From a virus, in IMG/VR virus record IMGVR_UViG_3300009506_000143, positions 1 through 38,039 of that record: a DNA stretch of 38,039 bases, one strand, 5' to 3'. Positions 130 to 37,999 of this stretch are shown one piece after another. The first letter of the stretch is position 1. Every line of letters begins with the position of its first letter. Under the pieces are notes generated by a model, which ran no database searches, was not told where the DNA came from, and saw only the letters and a list, made by a program, of their open reading frames with translations. Both the position numbers and the translations under genes were made by a program.

Positions 130-158
130 TTGCTTTTTTATTGCGGTAGTGCTATATT
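130..158 (+). promoter_or_regulatory. Promoter of cassette copy 1
   Basis: TTGCTT at 130-135 and TATATT at 153-158 are separated by 17 bases, a good sigma-70-type match. The -10 is followed by a leader that is also found, diverged, in front of the second cassette copy at 22.9 kb. Transcription should start near 165 and run into the small acidic gene. Confidence 0.65.
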
Positions 159-165
159 TATATTG

Positions 166-218
166 TAAGGTGATTAAAACCTTAACACCAATTACCCGCT
201 GGTCGGTGAGTAGGCCAG
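166..218 (+). promoter_or_regulatory. Structured 5' leader of cassette copy 1
   Basis: Two short hairpins lie between the promoter and the start codon. The first pairs TAAGG (166-170) with CCTTA (180-184). The second pairs CTGGTC (199-204) with GGCCAG (213-218) around the loop GGTGAGTA and ends just before the start codon. The copy at 22.9 kb keeps both, with a G-C pair changed to A-U in the second stem. The place next to the ribosome-binding site suggests control of translation; that role is inference. Confidence 0.5.
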
Positions 219-227
219 AAGATGAAG

Positions 228-413
228 ATGACAAAGATTCAGTATGACACAGTAAACGGAATTGAGATTGTAGAAGAGTTCGATAGCGAAGCGAAGATCG
301 TTGAAGGTTTTGAAGTTGACGATTTGCGAACAGCTGATGACGGGCTTTTTGGTGCTGAAGTTACCGACGACCAGCTTGAAGAAATCCGAGCTGAATATGG
401 ATTTTTCAGGTAA
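228..413 (+). CDS. Small acidic cassette protein, copy 1
   Basis: A 61-residue protein beginning MTKIQYDTVNG, with 18 Asp/Glu against 5 Lys/Arg. It has no signal peptide or membrane segment, so it should be cytoplasmic. The start at 228 matches the start of its paralogue at 22711-22896; an in-frame ATG six bases upstream (222) is also possible. The two proteins differ at only 4 residues, while 13 of the 17 changed codons are silent, so both copies look selected as proteins. It has its own promoter, leader and terminator. Strong negative charge would fit a protein that binds a basic partner or mimics DNA, but that is only an inference. The family was not recognised. Confidence 0.85.
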   Translation: MTKIQYDTVNGIEIVEEFDSEAKIVEGFEVDDLRTADDGLFGAEVTDDQLEEIRAEYGFFR

Positions 414-420
414 ATAACTT

Positions 421-442
421 CCGGCCTTCGGGCCGGTTTTTT
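421..442 (+). terminator. Intrinsic terminator after cassette copy 1
   Basis: A perfect 6-bp stem CCGGCC/GGCCGG with a TTCG tetraloop (421-436) is followed by six T residues. It sits 8 bases after the stop codon, so the cassette is an independent transcription unit. Confidence 0.9.
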
Positions 443-3256: not shown

Positions 3257-4140
3257 CACGCCAAGAATATATTTCAGATTTTAGGAAAAAGAACAATCGA
3301 CCACCAACAAAAATAGAGCTTGCAACAGCGCTTAAAATATCTGAACGCACCGCTATGCATGAATTGGCACAATATCTGGCTGCGGTGAAAGAGCCAAAGG
3401 CAAACCATGCAAACCCGGCAAAAAAGCGTAACTCATTATTACCGCTCAGGGTAGCACTGTTTGTTCTATCGGCAATGGCGTTTATCCTTTCCGTGTATTT
3501 CACAGGGTTATGGTTCTATGGCCGGTTTAATTTGTTTATATCCGGTCTGATCTCGTTAACAATGGTGCTGTTTATGGTCATTGCCCCACAGACATTGCGG
3601 TTTATCAATAACCCCCTGATAAGATTGATTGTTTCCGTGTCGTTTATAATTGCTATGGTTTTCAGCATGGGGTCCACGATTGCCGGACAGTTTCAGAAAT
3701 CCACACTTGTGATGGAATCAGAGATAGATAAATCATATGTTTTTAACCAGCTTGCAAGTAACGAGGAGGAGGTTAAGCAACTAATTTCCGAAGCGCAAAA
3801 AGATAAATCTATACATCAACAAACATTAGAGCAATTATCTGCAAGTAAGGATGATCGCCTTAATAACTGGCAGCAGATTGCAACGGAGCGGAAATACATT
3901 GATAACTTCGATTCCAGGATTGATTTTCTCAGGGCAGAGCTCACAGATACCAGGGAGAAAGTAATTGATAACGGAACAATAGAAGAGAAACGAGATTTTT
4001 ACTACTTCATTTCCGGTATAACCGGGGTCAAGAAATCAATGGTAGAATTCATAATATCTTCATTGCCGGCTATTTTTATAGATATCGTATCGGCGCTATG
4101 TCTGAATCTGGCGCTGTTTATTAAGGAGGATAAATCATAA
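3253..4140 (+). CDS. HTH-like membrane protein with coiled coil
   Basis: A 295-residue protein of unusual build. Residues about 1-47 look like a helix-turn-helix (PPTKIELATALKISERTAMHELAQYL). A basic linker leads to three hydrophobic spans at about 62-90, 93-114 and 120-145. Then comes a charged coiled coil (about 150-235) and a last span near 263-290. It is the largest gene of the left arm. It overlaps the genes on both sides, so it belongs to this operon. The layout suggests a protein anchored in the inner membrane whose cytoplasmic head can touch DNA or a partner. The family was not recognised; the HTH call is by pattern only. Confidence 0.75.
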   Translation: MTRQEYISDFRKKNNRPPTKIELATALKISERTAMHELAQYLAAVKEPKANHANPAKKRNSLLPLRVALFVLSAMAFILSVYFTGLWFYGRFNLFISGLISLTMVLFMVIAPQTLRFINNPLIRLIVSVSFIIAMVFSMGSTIAGQFQKSTLVMESEIDKSYVFNQLASNEEEVKQLISEAQKDKSIHQQTLEQLSASKDDRLNNWQQIATERKYIDNFDSRIDFLRAELTDTREKVIDNGTIEEKRDFYYFISGITGVKKSMVEFIISSLPAIFIDIVSALCLNLALFIKEDKS

Positions 4141-19978: not shown

Positions 19979-20340
19979 CAAACAGCCTCCTCAAGCGGGC
20001 ATTCATACCCGTGTATTCCGCCGAACTTCTCCAAAGGATCGATTGACCCGAGTTTCCACTGTTTACCATTTTTGTCAGTGATCAATGCCCCGGCAACAAG
20101 AAAATCAACATCATATTCAACAGAAAGAAATCTGTTGAGGTTCGTTGAAAGCCCGATGGTACTCGACCCAAGATCCGGAACGCTTGAACTCTCGTGTGAG
20201 ATCCTCCCGGAAAACGTTTTCGTCACAGGCGTTGACCAAGGATCAGAAGGATCCACAGGTATATCAATAGATATTGTCTGCCTATCCTCATCAACAAGAG
20301 CTTTCATCCCTTTTCTGGCCTGTTTTAATAGCATATTCAT
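19978..20340 (-). CDS. Head-tail connector (stopper-like) protein
   Basis: A 120-residue protein with strands around VTKTFSGRISHESSS, YDVDFLVAGALITDKNGKQW and a short end. Many stopper and head-closure proteins contain this kind of small barrel, and the text YDVDFLV-GALITDKNGKQWKLG is like them. It sits between the 352-residue gene and the small neck gene. It overlaps the upstream stop by four bases. Confidence 0.6.
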   Translation of the reverse strand: MNMLLKQARKGMKALVDEDRQTISIDIPVDPSDPWSTPVTKTFSGRISHESSSVPDLGSSTIGLSTNLNRFLSVEYDVDFLVAGALITDKNGKQWKLGSIDPLEKFGGIHGYECPLEEAV

Positions 20341-21395
20341 ATTTTAACAATGTGCCCTATGGCAACGGCTTCTAACGAAGTAAGCCCGCTAAAGTTTTCT
20401 TTAAAAACTATTTCCAATTCGTCCCAAGGCTCTACCTTATTCGCTACTCCCTGATTTTCTTGTCCGGCCAGTACCCATTCGGCGAAAAACCCATATTTCC
20501 CAGTTCCAGGATTGAACGCAGAAAAAGGTGTCCAGTGGCCTAACAAGCCTTGCATCTCAAGGTTTGAATTAAATGTGACAAGATTTCTATATGGGGTTGT
20601 ATTCTTTTTTCTGATAGTTATCCCGTCTTTTACAACACCAGCAGCTCCGACTGATAAATCCCCGAACTCGTCTATTTCTGGAGCCGTTGCCGTTATACAT
20701 GTAAATCTTATCCTTGTAAAATGGAAAGATTCGGGAACATCGTAATTTTCTGTCCTTATACCGAACACTGCTTCGCTAGATGATGCATTTATCGCCATAT
20801 CTGTAGACGATAAAATCACCTTTGTCCCTGATGTATAGGCAAAGTCAAGAGGTCTATCTATTGGGATTGTAGTACCTGAGACGTATGTTGAGCTAACCTG
20901 GCAGATCATTCCTCGCTCGTTGACGGTATCTATAAGATGTAGCAGTTTCCCGGCTGTAAATCCTGTTGCATCGGAGACAACAATAGATCTATCAAACAAT
21001 GAGGTATTTGAAGCCAGTGTAGTCTCTGCCTCTTCCGTGAAAAACTTAAATACCAGTGCGTCTGTGGTCTGATCTTGTACATCGACATCAATCTCTTTCC
21101 GATAGTTGATATCGTAAGAAACAACTATCTCAGCTGTATCACCAGTGTTTTTACAGCAAGCATAAAAGATCCAATATTCGTTTTGTGCCGATAAAACAGC
21201 CCTATCAGTATTGTTTATTGGTTCGTAAATACGTCGTCCGCTTTCAATGATAGTTGACGATGATGGGATACCCTGATCTGTGCCGTATACATAAACCTCG
21301 GCCTTTCCAGCGTCGCCTGTACTTCCAGGTTGCATCCATACTGCAGCTGATTCACCTTGACTTGTTATAGCGGAAACTGAAGTGGTTATGTTCAC
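20337..21395 (-). CDS. Large unknown protein in the neck cluster, 352 aa
   Basis: A 352-residue soluble, strand-rich protein starting MNITTSVSAITSQGESAAVWM. It overlaps genes on both sides by four bases. The region LFDRSIVVSDATGFTAGKLLHLID, then SGTKVILSS, reads like a small barrel or Ig-like fold used in virion surface proteins. At this place most siphoviruses carry only short connectors, so an extra protein this size is unusual. It may be a head fibre, a decoration protein or a neck whisker. Function not assigned. Confidence 0.65.
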   Translation of the reverse strand: MNITTSVSAITSQGESAAVWMQPGSTGDAGKAEVYVYGTDQGIPSSSTIIESGRRIYEPINNTDRAVLSAQNEYWIFYACCKNTGDTAEIVVSYDINYRKEIDVDVQDQTTDALVFKFFTEEAETTLASNTSLFDRSIVVSDATGFTAGKLLHLIDTVNERGMICQVSSTYVSGTTIPIDRPLDFAYTSGTKVILSSTDMAINASSSEAVFGIRTENYDVPESFHFTRIRFTCITATAPEIDEFGDLSVGAAGVVKDGITIRKKNTTPYRNLVTFNSNLEMQGLLGHWTPFSAFNPGTGKYGFFAEWVLAGQENQGVANKVEPWDELEIVFKENFSGLTSLEAVAIGHIVKI

Positions 21396-21868
21396 AGGTT
21401 GCCTCCTCCGATTTCAGGCTGTTTAGTCTGCCCCCATCGCCCTGAGTTGTTTCCAGAGTTCGCCTGTTTTTCTTCGGTGCATAGAGAGAGAAGGTCTTTA
21501 TAGTAAGCTAGTGTATCTGCCAGTGTCTGATATTCTGTTGAATCTGCTCCGGTCGAGTTCCGTTTGATCTGTAATGATCTTCCGATTTGCGAGATTATTG
21601 ATTTTATACTTTGGCAAGTAGCGTAATCCGATCCGTTTAGATCAATCCAATTCCCGATACGTACATCAGATACCATCAATTCTTCAATCGTGTAATCGCC
21701 AGCTACGGCGCCAGTAGTTTTCTCTGTAGAATAATAAACCCCAGACAGCAGATAGCACGTCTGGGGAGAAGGAGAAGAAGGAAGAGCTGTTACCTCTTCA
21801 AAGGCGATGAATCCTGGAGGATCGGAGATTCTCAGTCTGACATCAAATATTTGATCGGTAGTAGCCAT
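21392..21868 (-). CDS. Head-tail adaptor candidate
   Basis: A 158-residue protein with strands at the start (FDVRLRISDPPGFIAF) and helices later (SIKSIISQIGRSLQI, then YQTLADTLAYYKDLL). The end is Gly/Asn/Gln-rich. The position as first gene of the neck cluster and the helical part fit a head-tail adaptor. The start codon lies only six bases after a good -10 box and lacks a ribosome-binding site, so the mRNA could be leaderless. Confidence 0.6.
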   Translation of the reverse strand: MATTDQIFDVRLRISDPPGFIAFEEVTALPSSPSPQTCYLLSGVYYSTEKTTGAVAGDYTIEELMVSDVRIGNWIDLNGSDYATCQSIKSIISQIGRSLQIKRNSTGADSTEYQTLADTLAYYKDLLSLCTEEKQANSGNNSGRWGQTKQPEIGGGNL

Positions 21869-21874
21869 ACATTG

Positions 21875-21903
21875 AGTATAGCAGTAGATTCAAATTATAT
21901 CAA
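21875..21903 (-). promoter_or_regulatory. Promoter before the neck cluster, possibly leaderless
   Basis: On the minus strand TTGATA (21903-21898) and TATACT (21880-21875) are 17 bases apart. The start codon at 21868 lies at the predicted first base of the transcript, and no Shine-Dalgarno sequence precedes it. The match is good but is not proven. Confidence 0.55.
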
Positions 21904-21969
21904 TTGTGTATTTTATCCGCAGCAATCAAACAGAGTGTGGCTTTTCTTGCGAGTTCTGCATTATTTGTT

Positions 21970-22125
21970 TTATTGTTTTTCCTCCACATTGAGCAAAGCC
22001 ATCATGATTATATATTTCGATACTGTCAATTCAAGCTCTTCTGCTCTTGCTTTAATAATCTTTTTTTGTTCCTGAGTACACCGGATCTCTATCTTTTCTG
22101 TCTTTTGGAATTTTGGTTTATTCAT
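21970..22125 (-). CDS. Ribbon-helix-helix DNA-binding protein, 51 aa
   Basis: A 51-residue protein starting MNKPKFQKTEKIEIRCTQEQ. A short strand (KIEIRCT) is followed by a helix (QEQKKIIKARAEELE), a turn (LT) and a second helix (VSKYIIMMALL). That is the Arc/CopG/MobC-type ribbon-helix-helix, which works as a dimer and binds operator DNA with the strand residues. AAGGAAG lies before the ATG. It sits in the short gap between the pentapeptide-like gene and the neck genes, beside the promoter at 21.9 kb, so it may control that promoter. Confidence 0.75.
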   Translation of the reverse strand: MNKPKFQKTEKIEIRCTQEQKKIIKARAEELELTVSKYIIMMALLNVEEKQ

Positions 22126-22148
22126 TTTGGCTTCCTTTTTACCGGCCC

Positions 22149-22616
22149 TTATTTTAAACTATCTTTCAAAGCCTTGTAGCTGTCCTCTGAAATAGTAATT
22201 TCCTTTCCATCGATTATAATAGTATGTTTCTTCTCATCAACGTCTATTCCAGAAATTTCCTTGAATACCTCTTTGTCGGAATTCGGAAGAGCATATAACA
22301 ATTCCTTATCTTCACTTGTTGCTTTTTCCCATGATTTTTTCCATGCTTCTTTATACTCATATCTTTTGAGATATCCCCCAGTTGTTTTATGTTTGGGATT
22401 ATCTTCCTTTTCTTTATCTGACATATCCGCAATATCAACCCATTCAGTGAGGGGGAAATAGATAAGTTCCGGCTTTTTTGCGCTGTCCCATATTTCAGGA
22501 GTGCATGGTTTATTAAATGCACCGAATCCAGAATAATCTACAGTGGAGAAATGTCCTGTTGAATAATTTCCTGTTGAATAATCTCCTGTTGACCTATTTC
22601 CTTGATTTCTTGCCAT
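22149..22616 (-). CDS. Pentapeptide-like protein with conserved C-terminal domain
   Basis: A 155-residue protein. After MARNQGNR come units STGDY, STGNY, STGHF, STVDY, SGFGAFN, a pentapeptide-type repeat. The rest (FNKPCTPEIWDSAKKPELIYF, then TTGGYLKRYEYKEAW) matches a conserved module seen in many phage and prophage proteins together with such repeats. No enzymatic motif is seen. It lies behind the cassette copy 2, whose terminator has decayed, so the two may share a transcript. It is inserted between capsid and neck genes, where it looks like an accessory gene. Possible roles include anti-host defence or a virion part; neither is shown. Confidence 0.75.
   Translation of the reverse strand: MARNQGNRSTGDYSTGNYSTGHFSTVDYSGFGAFNKPCTPEIWDSAKKPELIYFPLTEWVDIADMSDKEKEDNPKHKTTGGYLKRYEYKEAWKKSWEKATSEDKELLYALPNSDKEVFKEISGIDVDEKKHTIIIDGKEITISEDSYKALKDSLK
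22548..22592 (-). repeat. Three 15-bp repeat units in a coding region
   Basis: Units 22548-22562, 22563-22577 and 22578-22592 are variants of TCAACAGGAGATTAT on the minus strand and encode STGxY pentapeptides. The exact length and near identity make the region prone to change in copy number. Confidence 0.8.
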
Positions 22617-22679
22617 GTTTTTTATCTCCTATGTTTTGTATCGATTGTTTTCTACTCATCCGCCCGGATATACATACGA

Positions 22680-22703
22680 GGCCGGAACCGGCCCGAAAGC
22701 CGG
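22680..22703 (-). terminator. Decayed terminator of cassette copy 2
   Basis: On the minus strand the order after the gene is CCGGC-TTTCGG-GCCGG then TTCCGGCC. The stem of the copy 1 terminator is still visible, but the T-run is gone and GGCCGG-TT-CCGGCC can form an alternative hairpin. Read-through into the pentapeptide-like gene is therefore likely. Confidence 0.55.
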
Positions 22704-22710
22704 AGATTGT

Positions 22711-22896
22711 TTACCTGAAAAACCCGTATTCGGCCCGTATCTCTTCAAGCTGGTCGTCGGTAACTTCAGCACCAAAAAGCCCGTCACCAGCGGTCCGCAA
22801 ATCGTCAACTTCAAAGCCTTTTACAATAACCGCTTCGCTATCGAACTCGTCAACAATCTCAATTCCGTTTACTGTGTCATACTGTATCTTTGTCAT
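22711..22896 (-). CDS. Small acidic cassette protein, copy 2
   Basis: A 61-residue protein that matches the product of the copy at 228-413 at 57 of 61 positions; the four changes are E16D, K23V, E26K and D37G. The DNA differs at 19 of 186 positions. GGGAG lies before the start, stronger than in copy 1. It has its own strong promoter and leader. It sits between the capsid terminator and the pentapeptide-like gene, which is the classic place for an inserted moron. The repeated retention in one phage suggests that dose or different timing matters. Function unknown. Confidence 0.88.
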   Translation of the reverse strand: MTKIQYDTVNGIEIVDEFDSEAVIVKGFEVDDLRTAGDGLFGAEVTDDQLEEIRAEYGFFR

Positions 22897-22905
22897 CTTT
22901 TCTCC

Positions 22906-22964
22906 CTAGTCTACTGACCGGCTAGTAGGTCGATTTTATTTAAGGCTTTCTTCCGATCACCTTA
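22906..22964 (-). promoter_or_regulatory. Structured 5' leader of cassette copy 2
   Basis: The same two hairpins as in copy 1: TAAGG/CCTTA (22964-22960 with 22945-22941) and CTAGCC/GACTAG (22925-22920 with 22911-22906) around the loop GGTCAGTA. The third pair of the second stem is A-U here and G-C in copy 1; the fifth pair is a C-A mismatch here. Confidence 0.5.
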
Positions 22965-22971
22965 TGATATA

Positions 22972-23000
22972 AATATAACACTTTTGTCATGACATGTCAA
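22972..23000 (-). promoter_or_regulatory. Strong promoter with operator, cassette copy 2
   Basis: TTGACA (23000-22995) and TATATT (22977-22972) are 17 bases apart. Overlapping palindromes TGTCATGACA (22985-22994) and TGACATGTCA (22990-22999) alternate the half-site TGTCA three times across the -35 region, so a repressor there would block the promoter. Copy 1 lacks this feature. Confidence 0.8.
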
Positions 23001-23037
23001 CAGAAAACATAAAAGTTTTTTAATTTCTTTTGCCAAT

Positions 23038-23059
23038 AAAAAACCGCCCGAATGGGCGG
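23038..23059 (-). terminator. Terminator after the major capsid gene
   Basis: On the minus strand CCGCCC-ATTC-GGGCGG (stem 23059-23044) is followed by six T residues (23043-23038). It lies about 20 bases after the capsid stop and separates the head operon from the inserted cassette. Confidence 0.9.
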
Positions 23060-23080
23060 CTAGGTTTGAAAAGAATAGAA

Positions 23081-24334
23081 TTACGAATCAGAAGGTAATG
23101 TCGTCTCAATTACGCTTCCATAAGACGCTCCAAGGCTTGTGCCTGGATAGGAAGAGCCGAGGAAATCTTTAAGCCATACACCGAATACACGGTACCAGGA
23201 TCTTTCCTCGGTAGAGAGCTGCAACGTTGAGCCCATTCCGGTCTCTAATGTCAGGCCGCGTTTGTTCATGACGAACATGTACTCTTTCGGGACGAACACA
23301 TAAACGGTTCCGGCTGTAACTCCGGGAAATGACAAAGTTTCTTTACCCCATTTCATCCCGTCAGTGATGCCCTGATCATACTCGATGATCGAAGCGATTG
23401 GGAGTGCCTGGGCGTTTATCGTTGTGATTGTTCCGTTACCGCCTCCTGTCTGGAGCTGTCCACCTATTACGCGCTGGAGGCTCCAAGTGTCCGCAGAGTT
23501 ACAAAGAATGGCAATCTGAGAAGCATTGATCTTACGACCGGTCTGAGGATCTTTCAGACCTCTCAGTTTCTTGATTGCCTTACGAATCGTATTGTACATC
23601 AGGACGTCATAAGTCGCACCGGAGGTGGTATCAGCAGCCTGTTTCTGAGAAGCAACATAAGTAGCCCCGACGATAGCCCCGACAGTAGCCGCGTTTCTTG
23701 CATCGGTATCCGCATCAGCGGCAGCCTGGTTGACCTTGGCAATCGTATGGACTTTATTAAACAGCATGTTGGCGAGAGTGTCTTTCCAGCCCAGGGCGTA
23801 AATGCTCTGGGTGAAGGTATCCGTCGCTCCGAGCTTCTGTTCGATCAGAGGGACTGAGTCGTTCGATCCTGCGATAACACCCATCTTACCAACATACTTG
23901 TAGAAGTAGTTTACATTGACTGTCTGGCTCGAATTAGGGTCATTGGCTTCTGTTGCGATCAGACTGGTAAGATCACCGGCTTCCTGTGCCCTGCGGGTGA
24001 TGTCGATATACATCGCACCGATAAGCGCTTCGATAGCCGTCTGGCCTGGATATTGAGCCGCGTTGAATTTCTTCACGTCCGCTTCGGTGAGCTTGTACTC
24101 TTTGTTGTTCTTACAGAGTGTCTGAAGCCCTTCGATCTCTTCCATGAGCTTCTGCTCTCCGGCTGTTCCGGTGTAAAGACCATTGTTCTTTACGTGGATC
24201 GGGTTGCCGAAAGTCTCAAATGAAGTGGAATCGAGGTTTGCTTTGCTTCCACCTTTAAAAATACGGACAATGTCCGATCTGTTTTCTTTTGCCCGCTGTT
24301 CCGCGAGCGTGTTTTTGTTAAAAATGTGTACCAT
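23081..24334 (-). CDS. Major capsid protein
   Basis: A 417-residue protein starting MVHIFNKNTLAEQRAKENRS. It follows the decoration gene and precedes a strong terminator. Motifs such as TYDVLMYNTIRKAIKKLRG, SQIAILCNSADTWSLQ and KEYMFVMNKRGLTLETGMG resemble the spine helix and P-domain of HK97-fold capsids, with a Gly/Ser-rich C terminus. The N-terminal helix could be a scaffolding-like region removed by the protease. Order protease, decoration, capsid is common among siphoviruses. No exact family name is claimed. Confidence 0.88.
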   Translation of the reverse strand: MVHIFNKNTLAEQRAKENRSDIVRIFKGGSKANLDSTSFETFGNPIHVKNNGLYTGTAGEQKLMEEIEGLQTLCKNNKEYKLTEADVKKFNAAQYPGQTAIEALIGAMYIDITRRAQEAGDLTSLIATEANDPNSSQTVNVNYFYKYVGKMGVIAGSNDSVPLIEQKLGATDTFTQSIYALGWKDTLANMLFNKVHTIAKVNQAAADADTDARNAATVGAIVGATYVASQKQAADTTSGATYDVLMYNTIRKAIKKLRGLKDPQTGRKINASQIAILCNSADTWSLQRVIGGQLQTGGGNGTITTINAQALPIASIIEYDQGITDGMKWGKETLSFPGVTAGTVYVFVPKEYMFVMNKRGLTLETGMGSTLQLSTEERSWYRVFGVWLKDFLGSSYPGTSLGASYGSVIETTLPSDS

Positions 24335-24344
24335 TGATTCCCCC

Positions 24345-25052
24345 TTACGCTGCTTCTACGAGCATTCTGACAGTTCCCCTGTCGGCTGCACCGTTGGCTA
24401 TAACCTTCACAACGCCGTCGGCGATAACGTTGTATCCGTTTGTGGCTCCATCAATCGTTCCGACTCTTGTTAATGTCAGCACAGGTGTTGCAACAATCGC
24501 ATCCGTGATGTCGTTGTCCGAACTGTCCTGGAGCTTCAGAGTGGCACTGGCATTTGTCGCCGTTGAGTGTACGAAGGCGTCAAGAATCGTGAAATTGAAA
24601 CCGAAGTCAGTTGAAAGCGCCGTGGTGGCGTCAGCCGTGACATCGATCTCTAGCCATCCCGTTTCGCCTGGATTAATAACCACGATGAGGGAAACTGCTT
24701 CTCGTAGGATCGATACTTTAACTACGCCGTTACTGTCTTTCACGGTGTGTACGATCCCGATTTTGTAGTATCCTTCTGTCGCCGTGTCGGAGAAATCCCC
24801 GGACGAAGGGTCGAAGTAAACGGGAGCGTTTGCCGTTCCGAAGGTGTCCTCGCTTGCAACGAGATCCGCAACTTGAATGATCATCCCGGCTTCCACATGG
24901 AAAGACCCGGTTGCTCCGCTTGCAATGGCTTCATCGGCAATACATACTAGGCCACCAATAACGGTGAGTTCATACTGGGCCAATGCTGCCCCTGTGTCAT
25001 TGGTCAATACAACATGATCGACCGATTCTTTTTCTATATATACTGTTGCCAT
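24345..25052 (-). CDS. Capsid decoration protein, DUF2190-like start
   Basis: A 235-residue strand-rich protein starting MATVYIEKESVDHVVLTNDTG. The N-terminal 115 residues look like the DUF2190 head-decoration family (DHVVLTNDTGAALAQYELTV, then GSFHVEAGMIIQVA). The second half (SATLKLQDSSDNDITDAIV, then VKVIANGAADRGT) reads like a small Ig or surface domain. Thus one domain may glue capsomers together and the other may face outwards. It lies between the protease-scaffold and capsid genes. Confidence 0.7.
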   Translation of the reverse strand: MATVYIEKESVDHVVLTNDTGAALAQYELTVIGGLVCIADEAIASGATGSFHVEAGMIIQVADLVASEDTFGTANAPVYFDPSSGDFSDTATEGYYKIGIVHTVKDSNGVVKVSILREAVSLIVVINPGETGWLEIDVTADATTALSTDFGFNFTILDAFVHSTATNASATLKLQDSSDNDITDAIVATPVLTLTRVGTIDGATNGYNVIADGVVKVIANGAADRGTVRMLVEAA

Positions 25053-25062
25053 CAGCTACTCC

Positions 25063-25539
25063 TTAAAAGTCCATGACTTTGGGGCCTGAAGAAACGTTCT
25101 GTTTTTCCGATACCCCGATCCGGTTGAAATCACTGTCGAACTGCGCCTGTTCTGCAGCGAGTGTCTGAAAAATCGAGTTCTGTTTGATCTCGTTCAGCTT
25201 CTCATCGGTCAGTTCGGCATTCCCGATAATCGAATCCACGTAAGTTCGGACCTTGTTCTCTTTTCCGTCGATCTGCTTTGCACCGAAATGCTCCGCGATA
25301 TTCGCTTCACGAACCGCAGCAGCATTCTGTTTTCTTTCCTCAAGGATACCCTTGATAAACTCCACCGGATCAGCGTCTCCGCAGAGAGCCTTAACAGCAT
25401 TCATCTTCACCAGTGCGGTTTTCTGCTCATCGGTTACGATCAGCTCCGAAAGGTTAAGATGTGTTGCTATTTCCGGGAGAGTGACAGCTAAATTTTCTTT
25501 AAGCGTTGTGAGCGCATTAAGAACCTGTTCTTTGTCCAT
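25063..25539 (-). CDS. Nested in-frame scaffold protein, 158 aa
   Basis: An internal ATG codes MDKEQVLNALTTLKENLAVT, in frame with the fusion gene. AAGGGAG lies five bases before it, as strong as other start sites here. The product would hold only the helical scaffold part (to VSSGPKVMDF). Lambda C/Nu3 and similar phages produce scaffold in excess from such a nested start. Support is the ribosome-binding site plus the domain border; there is no direct proof of expression. Confidence 0.7.
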   Translation of the reverse strand: MDKEQVLNALTTLKENLAVTLPEIATHLNLSELIVTDEQKTALVKMNAVKALCGDADPVEFIKGILEERKQNAAAVREANIAEHFGAKQIDGKENKVRTYVDSIIGNAELTDEKLNEIKQNSIFQTLAAEQAQFDSDFNRIGVSEKQNVSSGPKVMDF

Positions 25540-26454
25540 AGTTACTCCCTTATTTTCTTTTTTATCGATTAAGTCTCTGAGAGACTGAGCCGCTTGTGAA
25601 ACATTATCAAGTCCCGCCTGAGCTGCGCGCTGTGCGATCGCGTTCAATGCAGACCGATAAACCTTGTTATTTTTCCCGTAGGGATATTTGAATCCCGCTT
25701 TCGTATTGTCGTCGAAAGCCGTATCACGGACAAGGTGCCATGATCCGTAATTCTGCCAATCGTCACCGTTAGGGCCGAGAAGCGCGTTACCATCTGCAGC
25801 GCTGAATGACCATGATGAAGTAGCGTCATAATCACCGGCGTTTATCAGCCTTCTTGCTTTCGTTTCGCTCGCGGAGATAAGCTCCTGATCGGATACGGCG
25901 TTCGTCTTTTGATCCATCGCCCCTTCGCCATATCCCACAATATCGTTGCGTTCTCCGTACATGGACTCTACAACGTTATAGGATACCGATCCATCTTGTT
26001 TTTCTTCAACGCTGTCACGAGTATAAGATACGAGCGAAAATTCAATCATATCGCTCTTTGCTTCTTTGATCAGCGTTTCATTTCCGGATGGAGGGAAATA
26101 GTTCTTAAAATAAACAGAACCAGTACCATCTCCATTCTTATCCATCTTCGCACCGACAAGCAGTATGTCCGTATTGCCACGTTTACCCCATGATGTTTCA
26201 TGCCCGTCTTTACTTCCAGGGATAGGACGGCTATTCAGCTTTGATACAAATGACTCAAAAAATGATTCAACATAATTGTACATGTTGGCAACTATCGGAT
26301 AATCAATTTTCTGTATTTTATAGTATGGGTCTGAATCACCTTCCATCCATTGCGAGAGGATCGAAGAAGGTACAAGCGTCGGGATTTCATCAGGATTTAA
26401 TTTGAGAAGTTCGTCCGAAGATCGTAGATTTATTTTTTTTAGAGCTTTGCCCAT
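25063..26454 (-). CDS. Prohead protease-scaffold fusion protein
   Basis: A 463-residue protein. The N-terminal part carries a likely serine protease core with His in SKDGHETSW and Ser in MIEFSLVSYT. The middle (GDDWQNYGSWHLVRD, then FKYPYGKNNKVYRSALNAIA) matches a domain often attached to phage prohead proteases. The C-terminal third is helical and charged, like a scaffolding protein. The enzyme should cut the scaffold and the capsid N terminus during maturation. A second product starting at Met306 is likely. The gene lies between MuF and the decoration gene. The acid residue of the catalytic set was not placed. Confidence 0.8.
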   Translation of the reverse strand: MGKALKKINLRSSDELLKLNPDEIPTLVPSSILSQWMEGDSDPYYKIQKIDYPIVANMYNYVESFFESFVSKLNSRPIPGSKDGHETSWGKRGNTDILLVGAKMDKNGDGTGSVYFKNYFPPSGNETLIKEAKSDMIEFSLVSYTRDSVEEKQDGSVSYNVVESMYGERNDIVGYGEGAMDQKTNAVSDQELISASETKARRLINAGDYDATSSWSFSAADGNALLGPNGDDWQNYGSWHLVRDTAFDDNTKAGFKYPYGKNNKVYRSALNAIAQRAAQAGLDNVSQAAQSLRDLIDKKENKGVTMDKEQVLNALTTLKENLAVTLPEIATHLNLSELIVTDEQKTALVKMNAVKALCGDADPVEFIKGILEERKQNAAAVREANIAEHFGAKQIDGKENKVRTYVDSIIGNAELTDEKLNEIKQNSIFQTLAAEQAQFDSDFNRIGVSEKQNVSSGPKVMDF

Positions 26455-26485
26455 AGTTTAGTTTTACCCCCTTAAGGTGTTTATG

Positions 26486-27529
26486 TCAAGGATTTGCTGT
26501 TTTGTAAATGGTTTGATACCACTGATCAAGATACGCAGGACCAGACCCCGGGGTCCACGACTTCAAGTCTGCTACAAATTCACGTTGATCCATCAGAACC
26601 GGAACTACAGAGCAGGAACAATTGGGGTGTTGATAGTCTGGCACATCTTCCAGTTTATACGGGCTAGCTTCCTGCAAATCAATACACCTGAGACCGGATG
26701 CGTTCCGCGAACCGTCAATATCAATCGGATTTCCAGACTGCTTGACCCAATTGTACATTTTTGTTGCGGCAGGGTTCACAGTCCCTTCAAGGATCCCTGC
26801 TTGCTGCAACGATGCGCTCATCTCTGATCGTACAATTCTGAGCGCCCGCCAGTCAACTGTTCTCGAGATCCTTCGGTAATATTCCCGAGCCCCCGGCAGC
26901 AGTTTCCCGTATCTCCCTTCGGCAAACACGACGTTCTTTCCCTTCGTCACATAGGTCTGGATATCCTGAGCAATCTTGATGTTGTCACGCCCCTGCGCCT
27001 GCCCAGAGAGAATGATATTCTTAATCCGGTATTGGTAATCACCATTTACGCCAATCGGTAAGCCTGAGTCAGGATCAATCAATCCCCAGATCCGCTCTGA
27101 AAATGTGTACCCGTCTTGAAACACACGGTTAGACTGTATAGCGAGCAACTGAAGATTGATACCAGCTCCAATATTCTCTACTCCTGCTTTCGTGATTGCA
27201 CTTGTTCCCGATGCTTTGATAGTGTCCCTCAAGTAGTCAACATCCACACCCATGTAATTCCCATAGGCTTTGGATATTGCTTTCGGAGTCAACTCCTGCA
27301 CGGCATTTGAAACAAGATCAGCTCCGGCTTGTAGTTGGTTTTCTATCTGACGCCATGACATAGATGTAATGTCTGATAGCCCGGCAGCTTCTGTTATCTT
27401 AACCTGTTCCGCGGCTAATTCAGCCGCTTCTTTAAAAACTTTTATTAACTCCCTCTGGGTTTGGAGCGTTATTTTGTTTGCAAGATTCCGCGCCTCAATA
27501 TAGGCTTTCCGGTACTCATCTGCGGTCAT
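26486..27529 (-). CDS. MuF-like head morphogenesis protein
   Basis: A 347-residue protein with long helices in its first half and the typical minor head protein (Mu gpF-like) end: RRISRTVDWRALRIVRSEMS, then PDYQHPNCSCSVVPVL with conserved His and Cys. Members bind the portal inside the capsid and may be injected. It overlaps the portal stop by four bases. The C terminus lacks an added toxin domain. Confidence 0.85.
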   Translation of the reverse strand: MTADEYRKAYIEARNLANKITLQTQRELIKVFKEAAELAAEQVKITEAAGLSDITSMSWRQIENQLQAGADLVSNAVQELTPKAISKAYGNYMGVDVDYLRDTIKASGTSAITKAGVENIGAGINLQLLAIQSNRVFQDGYTFSERIWGLIDPDSGLPIGVNGDYQYRIKNIILSGQAQGRDNIKIAQDIQTYVTKGKNVVFAEGRYGKLLPGAREYYRRISRTVDWRALRIVRSEMSASLQQAGILEGTVNPAATKMYNWVKQSGNPIDIDGSRNASGLRCIDLQEASPYKLEDVPDYQHPNCSCSVVPVLMDQREFVADLKSWTPGSGPAYLDQWYQTIYKTANP

Positions 27530-28908
27530 ACTGCTCCGGTAGTCCCGAGTACGTCAAGTATGTTGGATTTCGTCGAAGCTGTATGCGCGACCATTCTGGC
27601 GATTCCTGCTTCAAACTCTGTATAATCCTCTTCTGTTGCATCCGGGTAGTTTATCTTCCAGAGCCGCCATAGCTGATTAGTCGTTAGAGCAGCTGACCCT
27701 ATAGCCTTTGAGATTCCGTCACAGAAAGAAGTAAATATCTCAGATTTAGTTTTATCTGAAAGCCCGTCAAGCCGATTCCATGCGATCTCAACATCTGGGG
27801 CGGTATCTACGAGATAGGCTTTATTCATCAGTCGAAGTGATGCTTCGAACAACGTCTTATAAGCCTCAATTTTCTGGTCCTGTTTATCCTTGACGAAATT
27901 CATGAGCATTGCCATGTTTTCTTCAACCGAAGCGAGATTCCCTTGTGTTTTGAGCCCCCAGGCAATTTCAGGGATACCGGAAGACTCGACTATCTTGTGG
28001 AATATCTGCTTTAACTTGTTTTGCATAGATTCTGTCATGCGTTCTGGGAATATAAAAGATGTTGATTCATCAGGCATGTTCAGGATTAGGTCTATTGTGG
28101 TTAAATCGATATCAGCTATAGACGAGTACCCATTATTATCGAGCCAGTCGTCAACATTTTTCGTGTTCTGAACCATCTTAGGCAAAAACTTCGCTAGTGC
28201 CGTTTGTTCTGCCAGATCGATGTCATGGTAACTCTTCAGGTCAGCAACAAACCGCTCGTAATCCGAGTGCCCGCGAATCTCGTCGCCATCTGCATTGTTC
28301 GAAAAGGGGATCGGGATTATCCCGGATGGGTTACTGTAGTCAGCTCCTTTGATGTCGGCAGGAACTGGACCGGAATACTCAATCGTGACTCTGGATCTTG
28401 TGAACGTCCGTTGCCGATTAACAGTAACCGTGTTTCCGGATCCGGTTGAAACGGTGATATCCTCATTCGTCTGAATTCTGATCACATTACCGGTAGAAAG
28501 ATCACGGATAATGTCGGTCACCGAAGCGTCTGGAATAAACTCCCAGACCAAGCCATCAGCTGTAAACTTCGGCCATATCCATATAGTCCCTTCGCGATGG
28601 CTCTGGATATGGATATCTTTCATCGCATCGGTCATTAAGCCAACGATCTCGTCAAGGATTACCTGAGCCTGTTCATCCTCAGCCCTCGGGATCGGCAGCC
28701 CCATGAGAGAGGCAGGAATCGAGATAGGATTATAGGCAAGCGCCCCGCCGAGCTTGATCCCCTGGTATGTGTTATGGTACAGCCCCTTTGTGAGTTCGGC
28801 ATTGACCTGCATAGAGTCGGTCCAGTCTACAGGAGCTGGTGACCGCCGTGTAATTTTTGTTTTATTATCTTCAGCTTCTACTTTTTTGAACCAATCAAAT
28901 ATAGACAT
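27526..28908 (-). CDS. Portal protein
   Basis: A 460-residue protein starting MSIFDWFKKVEAEDNKTK. It follows the large terminase and precedes MuF, the standard order. Segments such as YNPISIPASLMGLPIP, DIDLAEQTALAKFLPKM and IPEIAWGLKTQGNLASVEENM resemble wing, stem and crown parts of portal proteins. The portal is the 12-fold ring where DNA enters the head. The length is typical. Confidence 0.85.
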   Translation of the reverse strand: MSIFDWFKKVEAEDNKTKITRRSPAPVDWTDSMQVNAELTKGLYHNTYQGIKLGGALAYNPISIPASLMGLPIPRAEDEQAQVILDEIVGLMTDAMKDIHIQSHREGTIWIWPKFTADGLVWEFIPDASVTDIIRDLSTGNVIRIQTNEDITVSTGSGNTVTVNRQRTFTRSRVTIEYSGPVPADIKGADYSNPSGIIPIPFSNNADGDEIRGHSDYERFVADLKSYHDIDLAEQTALAKFLPKMVQNTKNVDDWLDNNGYSSIADIDLTTIDLILNMPDESTSFIFPERMTESMQNKLKQIFHKIVESSGIPEIAWGLKTQGNLASVEENMAMLMNFVKDKQDQKIEAYKTLFEASLRLMNKAYLVDTAPDVEIAWNRLDGLSDKTKSEIFTSFCDGISKAIGSAALTTNQLWRLWKINYPDATEEDYTEFEAGIARMVAHTASTKSNILDVLGTTGAV

Positions 28909-30236
28909 TAACGTCTCCTTCTGGCAGCCATTGCTGCGCGGGCATCGTCACTCATCATGGTACTACCTCCTTGATAAAAAGTCAAAATGATAGCATCAGC
29001 CTTGTCAGGAGATCTCTTGTATCGTTTCTTATATTCTGATTTAGGTTCTATCATGTATCGCCCTTTGCCGTCATAAGAGTATCTCCTACCAGATAATTGT
29101 CTCATAAGCTCAGGGTCATCTGGTAGGTCTATCTCGTCGATAATCTCGCGAAGGTGAAACCACATCTCTGTGACAATATCCGCGTATTTATCCGAATCTT
29201 CAGCATTTTGGGCAAAGTTTATCGGATAGACTTTAAGGCCTAATCGCTTTGAGTTATCTCTGGCGGATGTTCCGATTCCCGTTGTATCAATACGTACAGG
29301 TACAGCAGGATCACCATTTATCATTGATTTTATCTCGTTTGCAATCTCTTCGCCACCTGAATATGGGATTGTCTTACTGCTTACAATCTTGAGCCCCTTC
29401 CGCTCAAAGATTTCTGTCTTGTCGTCACCATAGTCTGCCGGGTCACATCCTACTGATCTTTGACCTTCAGGGTTAATTATGTTTCTGTCCATGGCTTGAC
29501 GAATCTTTGCACGAGCTAGTACAGATCTGTTACCTTGCTTCCGTGGAAGTCCGCGCCAGACATGCTCCGCTTCATCAGGGTCATATTTGTAATCCTCTTC
29601 CATTTCTTGAGGGAGTGTTGTCTCATACCACCATGGATTATCTATCGGGCCAGGCTCAAGGTGAAGGATACATGAATTTTCTCTTTCGTTAACAATAAAG
29701 CGCTCATAAACCGGGTCCATTTCTTCTTCCCGGTTGAATATGGCCCATAGCTCAGACCCTTTCTTGCGAAGAGTAGGAAGTAATTTTGTCCATGAGTCGT
29801 GTGTTATGGTTGCTGCTTCCTCAACGAAAAATATATCATACGACTCAAGAGATTTTATTTGATTTGCAGCTCTCATGTCCTTCAGACCACGGAAAATAAA
29901 ATGAGATCCGTTTTTTCTATTCTCGATTGACTCTTTTGTGAACACCCAATCAGTGTAACCCAATCTTTCAACTGTATTTTGGATAAGTGTATAGACTGAT
30001 TCTTCAAGGGATTTTTGTATTTCTCGAAGGCACGCGACACGGTGGGTGTTTTCCTCGGCTGCCTGTACAATGAGACTCGCAGCAGACCAGCTCTTAGCTC
30101 CTGCTCCTCTTCCGCCTTCCGCGATTTTGTACCGGTAAGGTTTCCGCCACTCTTCAAACTTCGGTGCGACACGCTCCCGGTCCTCTTGCTCCAATAGTTG
30201 TAAGAGTTCCAGTTCTTCGGCTTCAGTCAGTGGCAT
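28908..30236 (-). CDS. Terminase large subunit
   Basis: A 442-residue packaging motor. Residues 41-49 (GGRGAGAKS) form the Walker A loop, 134-140 (DIFFVEE) the Walker B with catalytic Glu. The nuclease domain carries Asp265 in SVGCDPADYGDD, Asp317 in RIDTTG and Asp411/Asp414 in SPDKADA. The type looks like Terminase_3/6 and Sf6 or PBSX-like enzymes that pack a headful. Walker A has an Ala before the Lys (GAKS), a slight departure from the usual GGKS. It overlaps the small-subunit gene by 14 bases. Confidence 0.92.
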   Translation of the reverse strand: MPLTEAEELELLQLLEQEDRERVAPKFEEWRKPYRYKIAEGGRGAGAKSWSAASLIVQAAEENTHRVACLREIQKSLEESVYTLIQNTVERLGYTDWVFTKESIENRKNGSHFIFRGLKDMRAANQIKSLESYDIFFVEEAATITHDSWTKLLPTLRKKGSELWAIFNREEEMDPVYERFIVNERENSCILHLEPGPIDNPWWYETTLPQEMEEDYKYDPDEAEHVWRGLPRKQGNRSVLARAKIRQAMDRNIINPEGQRSVGCDPADYGDDKTEIFERKGLKIVSSKTIPYSGGEEIANEIKSMINGDPAVPVRIDTTGIGTSARDNSKRLGLKVYPINFAQNAEDSDKYADIVTEMWFHLREIIDEIDLPDDPELMRQLSGRRYSYDGKGRYMIEPKSEYKKRYKRSPDKADAIILTFYQGGSTMMSDDARAAMAARRRR

Positions 30237-30711
30237 TCCGTTTTTCCAGTAGTTCGGAGATACGCTGTTGCTTCTCGCTGTGTGAAAGCTCTACCGGACC
30301 ACCATCTTTCCCGGTGAGTTCGATTGATTGTTTCTCTCGCCATATCTCTGGTTGTCTGTTTTTTAGCCAGAAGATTATTGATGTAGGATCAGGAGGGTAA
30401 TGTTTTATGGTAGGGACTATTACAGGCTCACCTTTATCAAGGAATATCTTATCTTCCGGATGCTCATACCCTTTTGCTCTCTGGAATAAAGAATCAACTA
30501 CAACAGCGTCAGCAGAATCTTTTGCTTTTTTTATGGACTCAAAAAACCCTTCATGATCTTTCTTCCAATTATTAATCGTCTGCTCGGTAACGCCGAAAAA
30601 TTCAGCCAGTTTCTTGTCAGTATATCCCAATAAGCAGAGCCTGTATGCCTGCTCTGCATATTCTGATCTGTAACGAGTCGGTCTACCTCCTGGGTGTTTC
30701 TTCTCACTCAT
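30223..30711 (-). CDS. Terminase small subunit
   Basis: A 162-residue protein starting MSEKKHPGGRPTRYRSEYAE. A helix-turn-helix is clear at LAEFFGVTEQTINNWKKDHE. The remaining part (DSADAVVVDSLFQRAKGYEH, then TSIIFWLKNRQPEIWREK) is the well known phage small terminase core. It recognises the packaging start site on DNA and feeds the large subunit. The packaging site may lie inside or near this gene. Confidence 0.88.
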   Translation of the reverse strand: MSEKKHPGGRPTRYRSEYAEQAYRLCLLGYTDKKLAEFFGVTEQTINNWKKDHEGFFESIKKAKDSADAVVVDSLFQRAKGYEHPEDKIFLDKGEPVIVPTIKHYPPDPTSIIFWLKNRQPEIWREKQSIELTGKDGGPVELSHSEKQQRISELLEKRNATD

Positions 30712-30720
30712 TCCTTAATC

Positions 30721-31083
30721 CTACCTTAAACCCCAATATTTTTCAACATGATTTTCGACTATTGATTTAACATCATCAACCGAACGCACCAGAAAAAACT
30801 CATAACCTGCATCGGTGACCCGTGCTTCAAACTTTTTTTGATTATCAGATTGTCTACCTGTTTGTGTTTTGACCTCAATAAAAACTATCCGGTAAGGGAG
30901 ATCCGGAGTAGGGAGTATTGCTATGAGATCAGAAATTCCGCTTCTCATTCCAAGGCTTATCATTTGCATCGCTCGGATTTTATTCGATCCAGCCGATTCA
31001 TTTGGAGTTGCCCAAAAGTAAATGTCTTTGGATTGCAAATACTTGACTATTTCAACCTGGATTAGAGATTCTTCGTTTTTCAT
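30721..31083 (-). CDS. VRR-NUC type nuclease
   Basis: A 120-residue single-domain nuclease of the PD-(D/E)XK group. The signature GISDLIAILP, then VFIEVKTQTGRQSDNQKKF shows the Asp and Glu-x-Lys of the active site. The C-terminal YEFFLVRSVDDV is typical of VRR-NUC proteins. Stand-alone phage forms cut branched DNA such as Holliday junctions. Position just before the terminase fits resolution of branched DNA before packaging. Its start overlaps the upstream gene by four bases. Confidence 0.88.
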   Translation of the reverse strand: MKNEESLIQVEIVKYLQSKDIYFWATPNESAGSNKIRAMQMISLGMRSGISDLIAILPTPDLPYRIVFIEVKTQTGRQSDNQKKFEARVTDAGYEFFLVRSVDDVKSIVENHVEKYWGLR

Positions 31084-31322
31084 TTTGTTTTATCACCTCT
31101 TGCTATTTTTGCTATATCAATATTTTGCAATTCCTCATCAACCCTTAATAGTGGTTTTAGAAGATCGTGGTTTTTTAATATTGCCAAAATTTCATCCCCT
31201 CCGGTATATCCCCATTCCATTATCCACTCAATCCTTGCGATAACTTCTCCTTGCCCAGATTTGAATCCATCTTCAAAAAACATTTCAAATGCTTCTTCTT
31301 TTGTTAATAATTTTTCTTCCAT
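31080..31322 (-). CDS. Hypothetical protein, 80 aa
   Basis: An 80-residue acidic helical protein starting MEEKLLTKEEAFEMFF. The start at 31322 is chosen because AAAGGAG lies at the right distance; the frame is open to 31352 but that stretch lacks a binding site. It follows the GTAC-rich repeat array and overlaps the nuclease gene by ATGA. No domain recognised. Confidence 0.7.
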   Translation of the reverse strand: MEEKLLTKEEAFEMFFEDGFKSGQGEVIARIEWIMEWGYTGGDEILAILKNHDLLKPLLRVDEELQNIDIAKIARGDKTK

Positions 31323-31350
31323 TTTAGACTCCTTTTTTTCCCTACATCGC

Positions 31351-31458
31351 ATGGTACGGTAGTACGTTTTCTAAAGAAAAACGTACCGTACGTACCCTAT
31401 ATGCTCGTTTTGTCCGAAAAGTACGTTTTTAATTTCGTACTGTACCGTACCATCGTAC
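31351..31458. repeat. GTAC-rich iteron-like array
   Basis: Ten GTAC tetramers fall in 105 bases (31354, 31362, 31383, 31388, 31392, 31421, 31437, 31442, 31447, 31455). Outer arms ATGGTACGGTAGTACG (31351-31366) and its near complement (31436-31453, two extra bases) form an inverted repeat. Inside, GTACGTTTT (31362-31370) pairs with AAAACGTAC (31378-31386). The array fills the gap behind the primase-helicase gene. A replication origin, a regulator-binding array or a complex hairpin is possible. Confidence 0.75.
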
Positions 31459-33455
31459 TATTTGTCATTATTTATAGTGATCGATGATATGATTTCATCA
31501 TCAATTATTAAAAATCCGTGCTGAAATTCTTTTATTATATTTTCGCTTATGAGCCTTGTTGCCGAAGCCATTCCAGATGGTTTTACTCTTTTTTCTGCTG
31601 CCGCAACGGTTTTCCCTTCATTTGTTATTATCGCGTTTTTCCATGCTGATCTTGTAATATATGGTTCTCCTGATTCTATAAGCTCCCCACTGTTTTTTCT
31701 CCATGCTTCAGTAATTGATTTTATATCAGAGGTTAAAGTTTTGTTTTTCTTCTCTTGGGGCTTTTGGGATGGCAAGATAACAGCAGATGTAACATCATCA
31801 CCATCTTCATCAACCCATTCATCAAGTTTAATTTGTCTTAATTCAACAAAATGGTCATCTAGTTCTTCTGAATCTTTCATTTTTACCTGTCTCAGTCTTA
31901 TCTTATCGGAAACTGGTTGAATACTGATCTCATTTTCAAGTGCTCCCCTCCATGCACCAGATCCACGCCCGCGGTCCTGTGTTTCAGAAGATACCCCAGT
32001 GTGGTGGACCAATATTACGGAGCATCCAAATTCTCTTTTTATTTTGTCACAGGCGTCAATCATGCTTTTTGAATCTTCAGAGTTTGAATCGTTTCCCTTT
32101 AAAAATCTATGGAGAGTATCAACAACTACTAAACCAGGCTTAACGGGAAGGTCTTTTATATGTTCAAAAACCATAAATAAGCCCTCATTTGTATTAAGAT
32201 CAACGCCATGTTCAGAAACCCACATAGGGAAATCTCCGGATACTCCATGATATTGCATCCATCCGGCAATCCTCTGCTTTATACCTATATGCCCTTCTCC
32301 GGCTAAATATACAATTGGAGACGGTTTTATTATATAATCCAACCATTTTTCAAAAGAAAACGCCGAATGCAAAACCCAATCCAAAACAATAAATGTTTTT
32401 CCGCACCCAGACGGGCCGTGAACCATAATTGTTGCGTTTTTTTGCAACCATCCTTTTATGTGCCATGCCACTGGAGTTTTGTCTTTAATAAATTCTGATG
32501 CTTTTACAAGAAATGTTTTTTTATTTGGCAAAAGTAAATTTTTTACATCTCCACCACCTTCTCTGTAGTCATTTATGTCTGTTTCCTCTACCGGAGAAAT
32601 TATAACTCTCGCTCCTATTTCATTAGCTGCAATATGGGCATATTTTTGACCAGTCCCAGATTCATCATTGTCCGCAACGATTATAATCGTTTTGTCCGGA
32701 TATTTCTCTTTAAATATTTTCGCAACTTTAGGGAGGTTCCCAGCACTAAAAGAAACAACAGAGAATTCACCAGTTTCTTCATATATTGTTGCGGCTGTTG
32801 CAAATCCTTCGGCAAGGAAAATAATATTTTTTAATTCACCAATAGGGAAAAAACATCCTCCAGCTTTAGCGTCTTTAAAAAATATTTTTTTCCCTTCTTT
32901 TGGAATTATTTGTATGGTTGATAGTTCATCTTTGTCATTATATCCGGCGACCATAAGGGCTCCAGATGCTGAAACTTTCGCCCCATAACCTCCAGACAAT
33001 CCCTTTTTTTTACAATATCCCGTTGAAGAATCGGCCAAACCAGAAGAATTCCAAAGAGCCAATGCATTTTCAGCTGCCTCTTTGTATGACGCTTCTCTTT
33101 CTTCTTCTCTTATTTTTTTTGCCTGTTCCTGTCTTTTTTGAATAGCCATTTCTTCAGCTAATGAAATAGGCCGTCCAATGTTAGCCCTAAAACAAAAACC
33201 GGAACCGCCCTGCCTCCAGTCGCCGACATATCCAGCAGGAATTAAAGAATCAGGATAGATTCGATACCATCCTGTATCGTCGTTTTTGTTTTTCAAAGGA
33301 AACCGGTGAACCTCCCCATCTATAATAATTTCAGACGGCGATGGCCATCCGAAATCACGTATAGCATCTTTTACTTGATTTTCAACTGACCTGTGTTCTT
33401 CAAAATCCTCTGGACAAAATCCATGCTTCCCGAAAATTGATTCAAGATTTCCCAT
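31458..33455 (-). CDS. Primase-helicase (TOPRIM and RecA-like ATPase)
   Basis: A 665-residue replication protein. The N-terminal part resembles the lead region of phage primases (FPLKNKNDDTGWYRIYPD). The TOPRIM domain has Glu216 (FLAEGFATAATIYE) and Asp262/Asp264 (IVADNDESG). The helicase domain has Walker A GPSGCGKT (347-354) and Walker B LVVVD (442-446), of the RepA/AAA_25 type. There is no zinc-binding motif at the N terminus. The C-terminal 100 residues are likely a winged-helix-like or loader region. It primes and opens the replication fork. It follows the Cro-like gene at five bases. Confidence 0.88.
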   Translation of the reverse strand: MGNLESIFGKHGFCPEDFEEHRSVENQVKDAIRDFGWPSPSEIIIDGEVHRFPLKNKNDDTGWYRIYPDSLIPAGYVGDWRQGGSGFCFRANIGRPISLAEEMAIQKRQEQAKKIREEEREASYKEAAENALALWNSSGLADSSTGYCKKKGLSGGYGAKVSASGALMVAGYNDKDELSTIQIIPKEGKKIFFKDAKAGGCFFPIGELKNIIFLAEGFATAATIYEETGEFSVVSFSAGNLPKVAKIFKEKYPDKTIIIVADNDESGTGQKYAHIAANEIGARVIISPVEETDINDYREGGGDVKNLLLPNKKTFLVKASEFIKDKTPVAWHIKGWLQKNATIMVHGPSGCGKTFIVLDWVLHSAFSFEKWLDYIIKPSPIVYLAGEGHIGIKQRIAGWMQYHGVSGDFPMWVSEHGVDLNTNEGLFMVFEHIKDLPVKPGLVVVDTLHRFLKGNDSNSEDSKSMIDACDKIKREFGCSVILVHHTGVSSETQDRGRGSGAWRGALENEISIQPVSDKIRLRQVKMKDSEELDDHFVELRQIKLDEWVDEDGDDVTSAVILPSQKPQEKKNKTLTSDIKSITEAWRKNSGELIESGEPYITRSAWKNAIITNEGKTVAAAEKRVKPSGMASATRLISENIIKEFQHGFLIIDDEIISSITINNDK

Positions 33456-33459
33456 TTTG

Positions 33460-33621
33460 TTATCCCCTGAAGTACTTTGTGAGTTTTTCTATTGTGCTGT
33501 AATTTGCTCCTCCACCCCTCATTATTCTATATAATGTCTCTCTATGAATCCCAACTTTTTCGGCAACAACAGAAATTACCCTGTCTTCAAGTGCTTCTCT
33601 AATTTCTTCAATTGTCATCAT
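33460..33621 (-). CDS. Cro-like XRE-family regulator, 53 aa
   Basis: A 53-residue protein starting MMTIEEIREALEDRVISVVA. A helix-turn-helix is plain in VVAEKVGIHRETLYRIMRG, then NYSTIEKLTKYF. Size and fold fit small Cro-like repressors that bind as dimers to inverted repeats. AAAGGA lies before the first ATG; a second ATG follows directly. The perfect inverted repeat at 33649-33683 lies 28 bases upstream and overlaps promoters for both arms, so the protein probably controls its own gene and the recombination arm. No second repressor was seen in the window. Confidence 0.82.
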   Translation of the reverse strand: MMTIEEIREALEDRVISVVAEKVGIHRETLYRIMRGGGANYSTIEKLTKYFRG

Positions 33622-33648
33622 TTTTGTTTATCCTTTAATATTTTTCTA

Positions 33649-33683
33649 TTGACAGAATAAACCGATATAAACTATTCTGTCAA
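33649..33683. promoter_or_regulatory. Divergent promoters within a perfect operator
   Basis: TTGACAGAATA (33649-33659) and TATTCTGTCAA (33673-33683) are perfect complements around a 13-base centre. Each strand reads TTGACA, 18 bases, TATTCT, so the -35 of one promoter overlaps the -10 of the other. Plus transcripts should start near 33685 and minus transcripts near 33647. A dimeric repressor bound here could switch both arms at once. Confidence 0.8.
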
Positions 33684-33731
33684 CAGATGGCCAACAAGAA
33701 ACCAATTCTGATCGGCCAGGAGGAAACATTT

Positions 33732-34719: not shown

Positions 34720-34724
34720 GGAAA

Positions 34725-35201: not shown

Positions 35202-35212
35202 AAATGGTTTTT

Positions 35213-35240: not shown

Positions 35241-35256
35241 ACAGGAGAATAAAAAA

Positions 35257-37975: not shown

Positions 37976-37999
37976 ATTAATTAGATAGGAGATAAAGAG

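Follow-up and report, generated by a model that had tools for sequence, protein, structure and literature searches.

The window, which is the whole stretch of DNA analysed, corresponds to a 38,039-base virus record. It belongs to a tailed phage (siphovirus) that carries the same unit of ∼290 bp twice, on opposite strands and 22 kb apart. Each copy comprises a promoter, a leader, a gene for an acidic protein of 61 residues and a terminator. A sequence-only reading of this DNA had placed one cassette at 130–442 on the plus strand (copy A) and its repeat at 22680–23000 on the minus strand (copy B). Comparison of the genome with itself confirmed the pair: positions 148–438 (+) align with positions 22686–22982 (−) over 298 columns at 83% identity (E = 1e-82), and no other repeat within the genome comes near it in strength. 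The homology runs from the extended −10 box at 148 to a point inside the terminator stem, while the flanks, both upstream and downstream, show the background identity of 43–45%. Flanking similarity extending far beyond the cassette, which would have pointed to a local duplication, was thus not seen in the alignment of both copies with their flanks. The pair is therefore due neither to chance nor to a simple segmental duplication. A transposable-element reading was also considered and rejected, since neither common ends nor a duplicated target site can be seen at 148/438 or 22982/22686, and no recombinase is encoded in the cassette.

The gene occupies positions 228–413 (+) in copy A and 22711–22896 (−) in copy B. 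The start common to both copies is the ATG at 228 and 22896; starting at the in-frame ATG at 222 of copy A would lengthen the protein by two residues, but a ribosome-binding site would not fit in front of it. The counts reported earlier were reproduced exactly: 167 of 186 bases and 57 of 61 residues are identical, and of the 17 changed codons 13 are silent, which leaves four amino-acid changes. Fifteen of the 19 base differences are at third positions. The NG86 counts gave dS of 0.47 and dN of 0.04 (dN/dS ∼0.09); when the same base changes were placed at random, the mean number of amino-acid changes was 12.9, and four or fewer were seen in 0 of 20,000 simulations. Purifying selection thus acts on the 61-residue protein, be it on the two copies in this genome or over the separate history of each.

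The first homologous bases of the two copies, AGTG[C/T]TATATTTATAT, lie at the extended −10 box (TGnTATATT). The promoter of copy A (130–158, +), read from the sequence and, from 148 onward, from its homology with copy B, has a weak −35 element TTGCTT (130–135), a 17-nt spacer and the extended −10 element TGCTATATT (150–158). The promoter of copy B (22972–23000, −) has the form TTGACA-17-TATATT with the TG of an extended −10 element and, with its exact 17-nt spacing, is the best promoter match within 20000–38039. The two −35 elements, TTGCTT in A and TTGACA in B, lie outside the homology. Both promoters are predicted to be active as host sigma-70 extended −10 promoters. A palindrome, TGACATGTCA, overlaps the −35 element and spacer of the copy B promoter (22985–23000, −) and is missing in copy A; it is a possible operator of copy B.

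In the leader of copy A (166–221, +) two hairpins precede the start codon, hairpin 1 (TAAGGT-GATTAAA-ACCTTA) and hairpin 2 (CTGGTC-GGTGAGTA-GGCCAG). The leader of copy B (22897–22971, −) retains all six pairs of hairpin 1 (TAAGGT/ACCTTA) despite a loop that is 5 nt longer. Five of six pairs are kept in hairpin 2 (CTGGTC/GGCCAG), where one pair is compensatory and one is broken; this hairpin is missing from the minimum-energy fold of the B leader. The first 27 bases of the homology are identical at 24 positions and the remaining leader at 36 of 52; outside the −10 block the divergence (31%) is about that of silent sites (35%). When neutral change was simulated in a simple way, both hairpins were retained with P ∼0.02. 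This joint value derives from hairpin 1 (P ∼0.04), and a structural role of the leader is thus suggestive only. Folding z-scores ranged from −1.0 to −1.8, and an Rfam search gave no match.

The intrinsic terminator of copy A (421–442, +) reads CCGGCC-TTCG-GGCCGG-TTTTTT. Copy B has the same stem (22683–22704, −) with TTCCGGCC in place of the T-tract, so its transcription may read through into the downstream gene for a 155-residue protein. Similarity had been claimed for the −10 box, both leader hairpins and the terminator stem: it holds for the −10 box, hairpin 1 and the stem, it is weak for hairpin 2, and the T-tract has no counterpart in copy B.

The minus strand of the genome carries the terminase, head, tail-tape-measure and endolysin module; the plus strand carries genes for a Sak4-like protein (33687–34391), an SSB, a Cas4-type exonuclease and a helicase. 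A PHROGs search with 34 of the proteins turned up neither an integrase nor a repressor. If positions 37945–38039 are joined to 1–100, both contig ends fall in one small gene, whose frame stays open on the assumption that about one base has been lost, which suggests that the genome is circularly permuted and nearly complete. The promoter region of this end-spanning gene contains a palindrome-like sequence, CATACATGTATG. Once the genome is closed in this way, copy A comes after the replication genes, from which one small gene separates it; it opens an early array of small genes and ORFans, none of nine tested members of which matched a PHROG. With the neighbour gene g457 as bait no relatives carrying the neighbours of copy A were found, and a terminase search of GTDB genomes gave no match. 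Elsewhere on the plus strand, between the SSB-like and Cas4-type exonuclease genes, lies a perfect hairpin resembling a tRNA T-arm (35210–35232; CGGGG-TTCGAGT-CCCCG). ARAGORN reported no tRNA there; the hairpin may represent a terminator, what is left of a tRNA or the core of an attachment site.

Copy B resides in the head operon, in a gap (21869–23080) between the major capsid gene (23081–24334) and the next conserved head gene (21392–21868). The major capsid gene is followed by a terminator (23042–23061, −) that precedes copy B. Downstream of copy B the gap holds a second gene (22149–22616, −; 155 aa), whose product has a weak pentapeptide-repeat start and phrog_14105 (function unknown) as its only match; a pattern scan found no relatives of it. 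Related phages, fetched via their major capsid and terminase proteins, differ widely at this place. The gap measures ∼85 bp in G005/L007, ∼93 bp in L029 and 247 bp in L042; in the window it is 1.2 kb long and is filled by copy B and the 155-residue gene; in G003 it is 1.7 kb, filled by small opposite-strand genes; and in G002 it is 3.5 kb, with opposite-strand genes including a pentapeptide-type ORF. The contents in G002 and G003 are completely different. Because the gap is nearly empty in some relatives and holds unrelated small genes in others, copy B is, on this comparison of gene orders, best classed as a moron-type insertion in an accessory hotspot, whose content varies and which is empty in some alleles.

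Repeats of control elements are also present in the relatives. G003 has a 70-nt promoter/RBS element near the terminase gene (3855–3924, +) that recurs in the hotspot (20490–20559, −) with 94% identity; the hairpin GGCCGGAGCAATCCGGCTTT lies 3′ of both associated genes, and the genes themselves are unrelated. G005 has three near copies of a promoter. The G003 repeats hint at recombination at shared control elements. As a separate observation, G003 carries ∼10 kb of accessory genes (L016 3050–13010) between the terminase and portal genes, which are adjacent in the window; by eye this block includes a glycosyltransferase-like gene, a DNA methyltransferase-like gene and a gene for a membrane protein.

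The sequence-only reading had likened the unit to a mobile moron, whose mobility would be supported by copies at varied positions in unrelated phages. Searches made separately with the protein and the leader found none. No homologue of the 61-residue protein was detected by tblastn (E ≤ 1) in 50,697 phages and 72,556 plasmids, nor by peptide patterns in IMG/VR (two pattern sets) and GTDB genomes; these pattern scans reach close relatives only, and distant homologues in metagenomes are possible. A DNA pattern search with the leader and promoter returned no other copy, and 19 related records, many of them fragments, contained no real match to the cassette. A weak match in G001 (13.8 bits) is antisense to the portal gene and was dismissed as chance. 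The phages, plasmids and genomes searched thus yielded no further copy, and the idea that the unit moves between phages is unsupported. The protein also had no sequence match to a known inhibitor or family in Pfam, PHROGs, NCBIfam, PADLOC or PDB, where a PADLOC match with E = 0.01 (12.8 bits) was set aside as near chance. Judged by these searches, the protein appears to be a new family and the cassette ordinary in kind.

Acidity had been the basis for proposing that the protein is an inhibitor of a basic partner or a DNA mimic. In the copy A protein 18 residues are acidic and 5 basic, in the copy B protein 16 and 5, and another small protein of the early array (2386–2643) is slightly more acidic still. 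Acidity thus does not single out the 61-residue protein in this phage and was rejected as evidence for DNA mimicry, which is only a guess. An AlphaFold model built from the two sequences (pLDDT 46) was unusable and was discarded. Position, size, an own promoter and retention in the genome lead us to suggest, tentatively, an early role in host takeover or counter-defence as the most likely function.

In our view the two units are probably copies of a single moron-type accessory cassette for expression, which has been copied from promoter to terminator and is kept by selection at both places in this siphovirus genome. The suggestion that this is a small unit with its own promoter and terminator under selection is borne out by the sharp boundaries, the opposite strands, the low dN/dS and the empty hotspot of relatives; against the moron-type reading count the lack of a copy in any other phage searched, the G+C content of the cassettes (41.9% and 44.9%), which is not distinct from that of the genome (42.6%, window SD 5.4), and the lost T-tract of copy B. 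The two copies might instead be xenologues, acquired separately from related phages, with a silent divergence older than their meeting. This history is plausible, if hardly the likelier one: silent sites differ by ∼0.47 per site, the −35 regions and flanks are unrelated, and hotspots normally take DNA of other phages, as the dissimilar contents in G002 and G003 illustrate. Yet no donor phage with the cassette was found, and divergence alone cannot tell the two routes apart. It is rather unlikely, in our judgement, that the copies should be seen as an old pair of paralogues serving as separately regulated sources, A early and B late or constitutive. Conservation of the protein alongside differing −35 elements and terminators would fit such a pair, as would the spacer palindrome of copy B and its predicted read-through into the next gene; no relative has both loci occupied, however, and this account overlaps with that of a copied moron-type cassette and does not exclude it.

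Two further explanations have much less in their favour. If the RNA leader were the functional element, as a regulatory or protein-binding RNA with the ORF secondary, the preservation of hairpin 1 around a loop of altered length and the compensatory pair in hairpin 2 would be accounted for. Divergence at the level of silent sites outside the −10 block, the modest z-scores, the empty Rfam search and the strong purifying selection on the reading frame make this very improbable. The source of the sequence, an IMG/VR record, raises the question of a chimeric metagenome assembly joining two related phages with one copy each. We regard this as highly implausible: the longest exact match between the copies is some 40–45 nt, short for usual assembly k-mers, both contig ends lie in one small gene as expected of a circularly permuted and nearly complete genome, and the late-region gene order agrees with that of relatives.

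Under the favoured reading of a copied moron-type cassette, each copy would be transcribed as a stand-alone unit. Its parts would be an extended −10 promoter read by host sigma-70, a short 5′ leader in which a hairpin has a stabilising role, the gene for the protein and a terminator. Copy A would head the early small-gene array, and copy B would have been inserted into the hotspot inside the late (head) operon. Copying of the whole unit from promoter to terminator most likely took place by recombination, either illegitimate or at short homologies, while the phage replicated or during a co-infection. The Sak4-like annealing protein of the phage is a candidate agent along this presumed route; single-strand annealing proteins are described as recombining diverged DNA (PMC5499656). 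Repeated control elements such as those of G003 and G005 could supply the short homologies for such a protein. Purifying selection would since have held both copies to the same protein, most likely a small host-takeover or counter-defence product that is expressed from host promoters; copy B would contribute a higher dosage or a later expression. The copying of a whole cassette in the window, together with the shared control elements and swapped cargo of G003, invites a broader reading in which this phage group moves whole cassettes within its genomes via repeated control elements and loads the head-operon hotspot from its own genome; we hold this to be improbable.

In compact phage genomes duplicate genes are not expected to persist for long. 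Here a cassette is kept twice under strong selection at the protein level, so that supply or timing of the protein may matter to the phage. The pair cleanly illustrates how the piece that moves can run from promoter to terminator, and it defines a hotspot, bounded by the major capsid gene and the head gene that comes next, in which more accessory genes may be sought.

Small acidic proteins that act as DNA mimics or inhibitors include Ocr and some anti-CRISPRs. The 61-residue protein resembles them in size and charge, and differs from them in having no sequence match to them and in an acidity common to unrelated early proteins of this phage. The definition of morons, from lambdoid phages, is restated in PMC2920897 and PMC6316719. 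Transcription signals of their own are evident in the sequence of the two cassettes (an extended −10 element in both, a strong terminator in A and a consensus −35 element in B), the unit was not found in relatives that share the core genes (19 related records, many of them fragments), and copy B sits between genes that are adjacent in relatives (G005, ∼85 bp; L029, ∼93 bp). A small orphan protein and a site also used by other accessory genes complete the likeness to morons. Unlike typical morons, the cassette occurs as two diverged copies in one genome, has been seen in no other, lacks the deviating G+C content that is usual though not required, and has a degraded terminator in copy B. We found nothing directly comparable in the literature on duplicated morons. 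In SPP1, ORF14 lies between the capsid module (gp11–gp13) and the head-completion module (gp15, gp16) and is classed as a moron (PMC6316719). Copy B is likewise a moron-type small gene at the same head-operon position; in contrast to this shared position, its protein has no match in 50,697 phage records, and the window cassette is duplicated, whereas no duplication is described for ORF14. The SAS/ESAS repeats of cluster K mycobacteriophages are repeated leader elements too; they contain inverted repeats and directly precede the starts of a subset of genes (PMC3203893). There the control element alone is repeated, in 11–19 copies before different genes, a case to which the repeated promoter of G003 is closer than the window cassette, in which the whole unit including the gene is present in two copies. 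What is noteworthy here is the duplication itself, with a conserved protein and sharp promoter-to-terminator boundaries.
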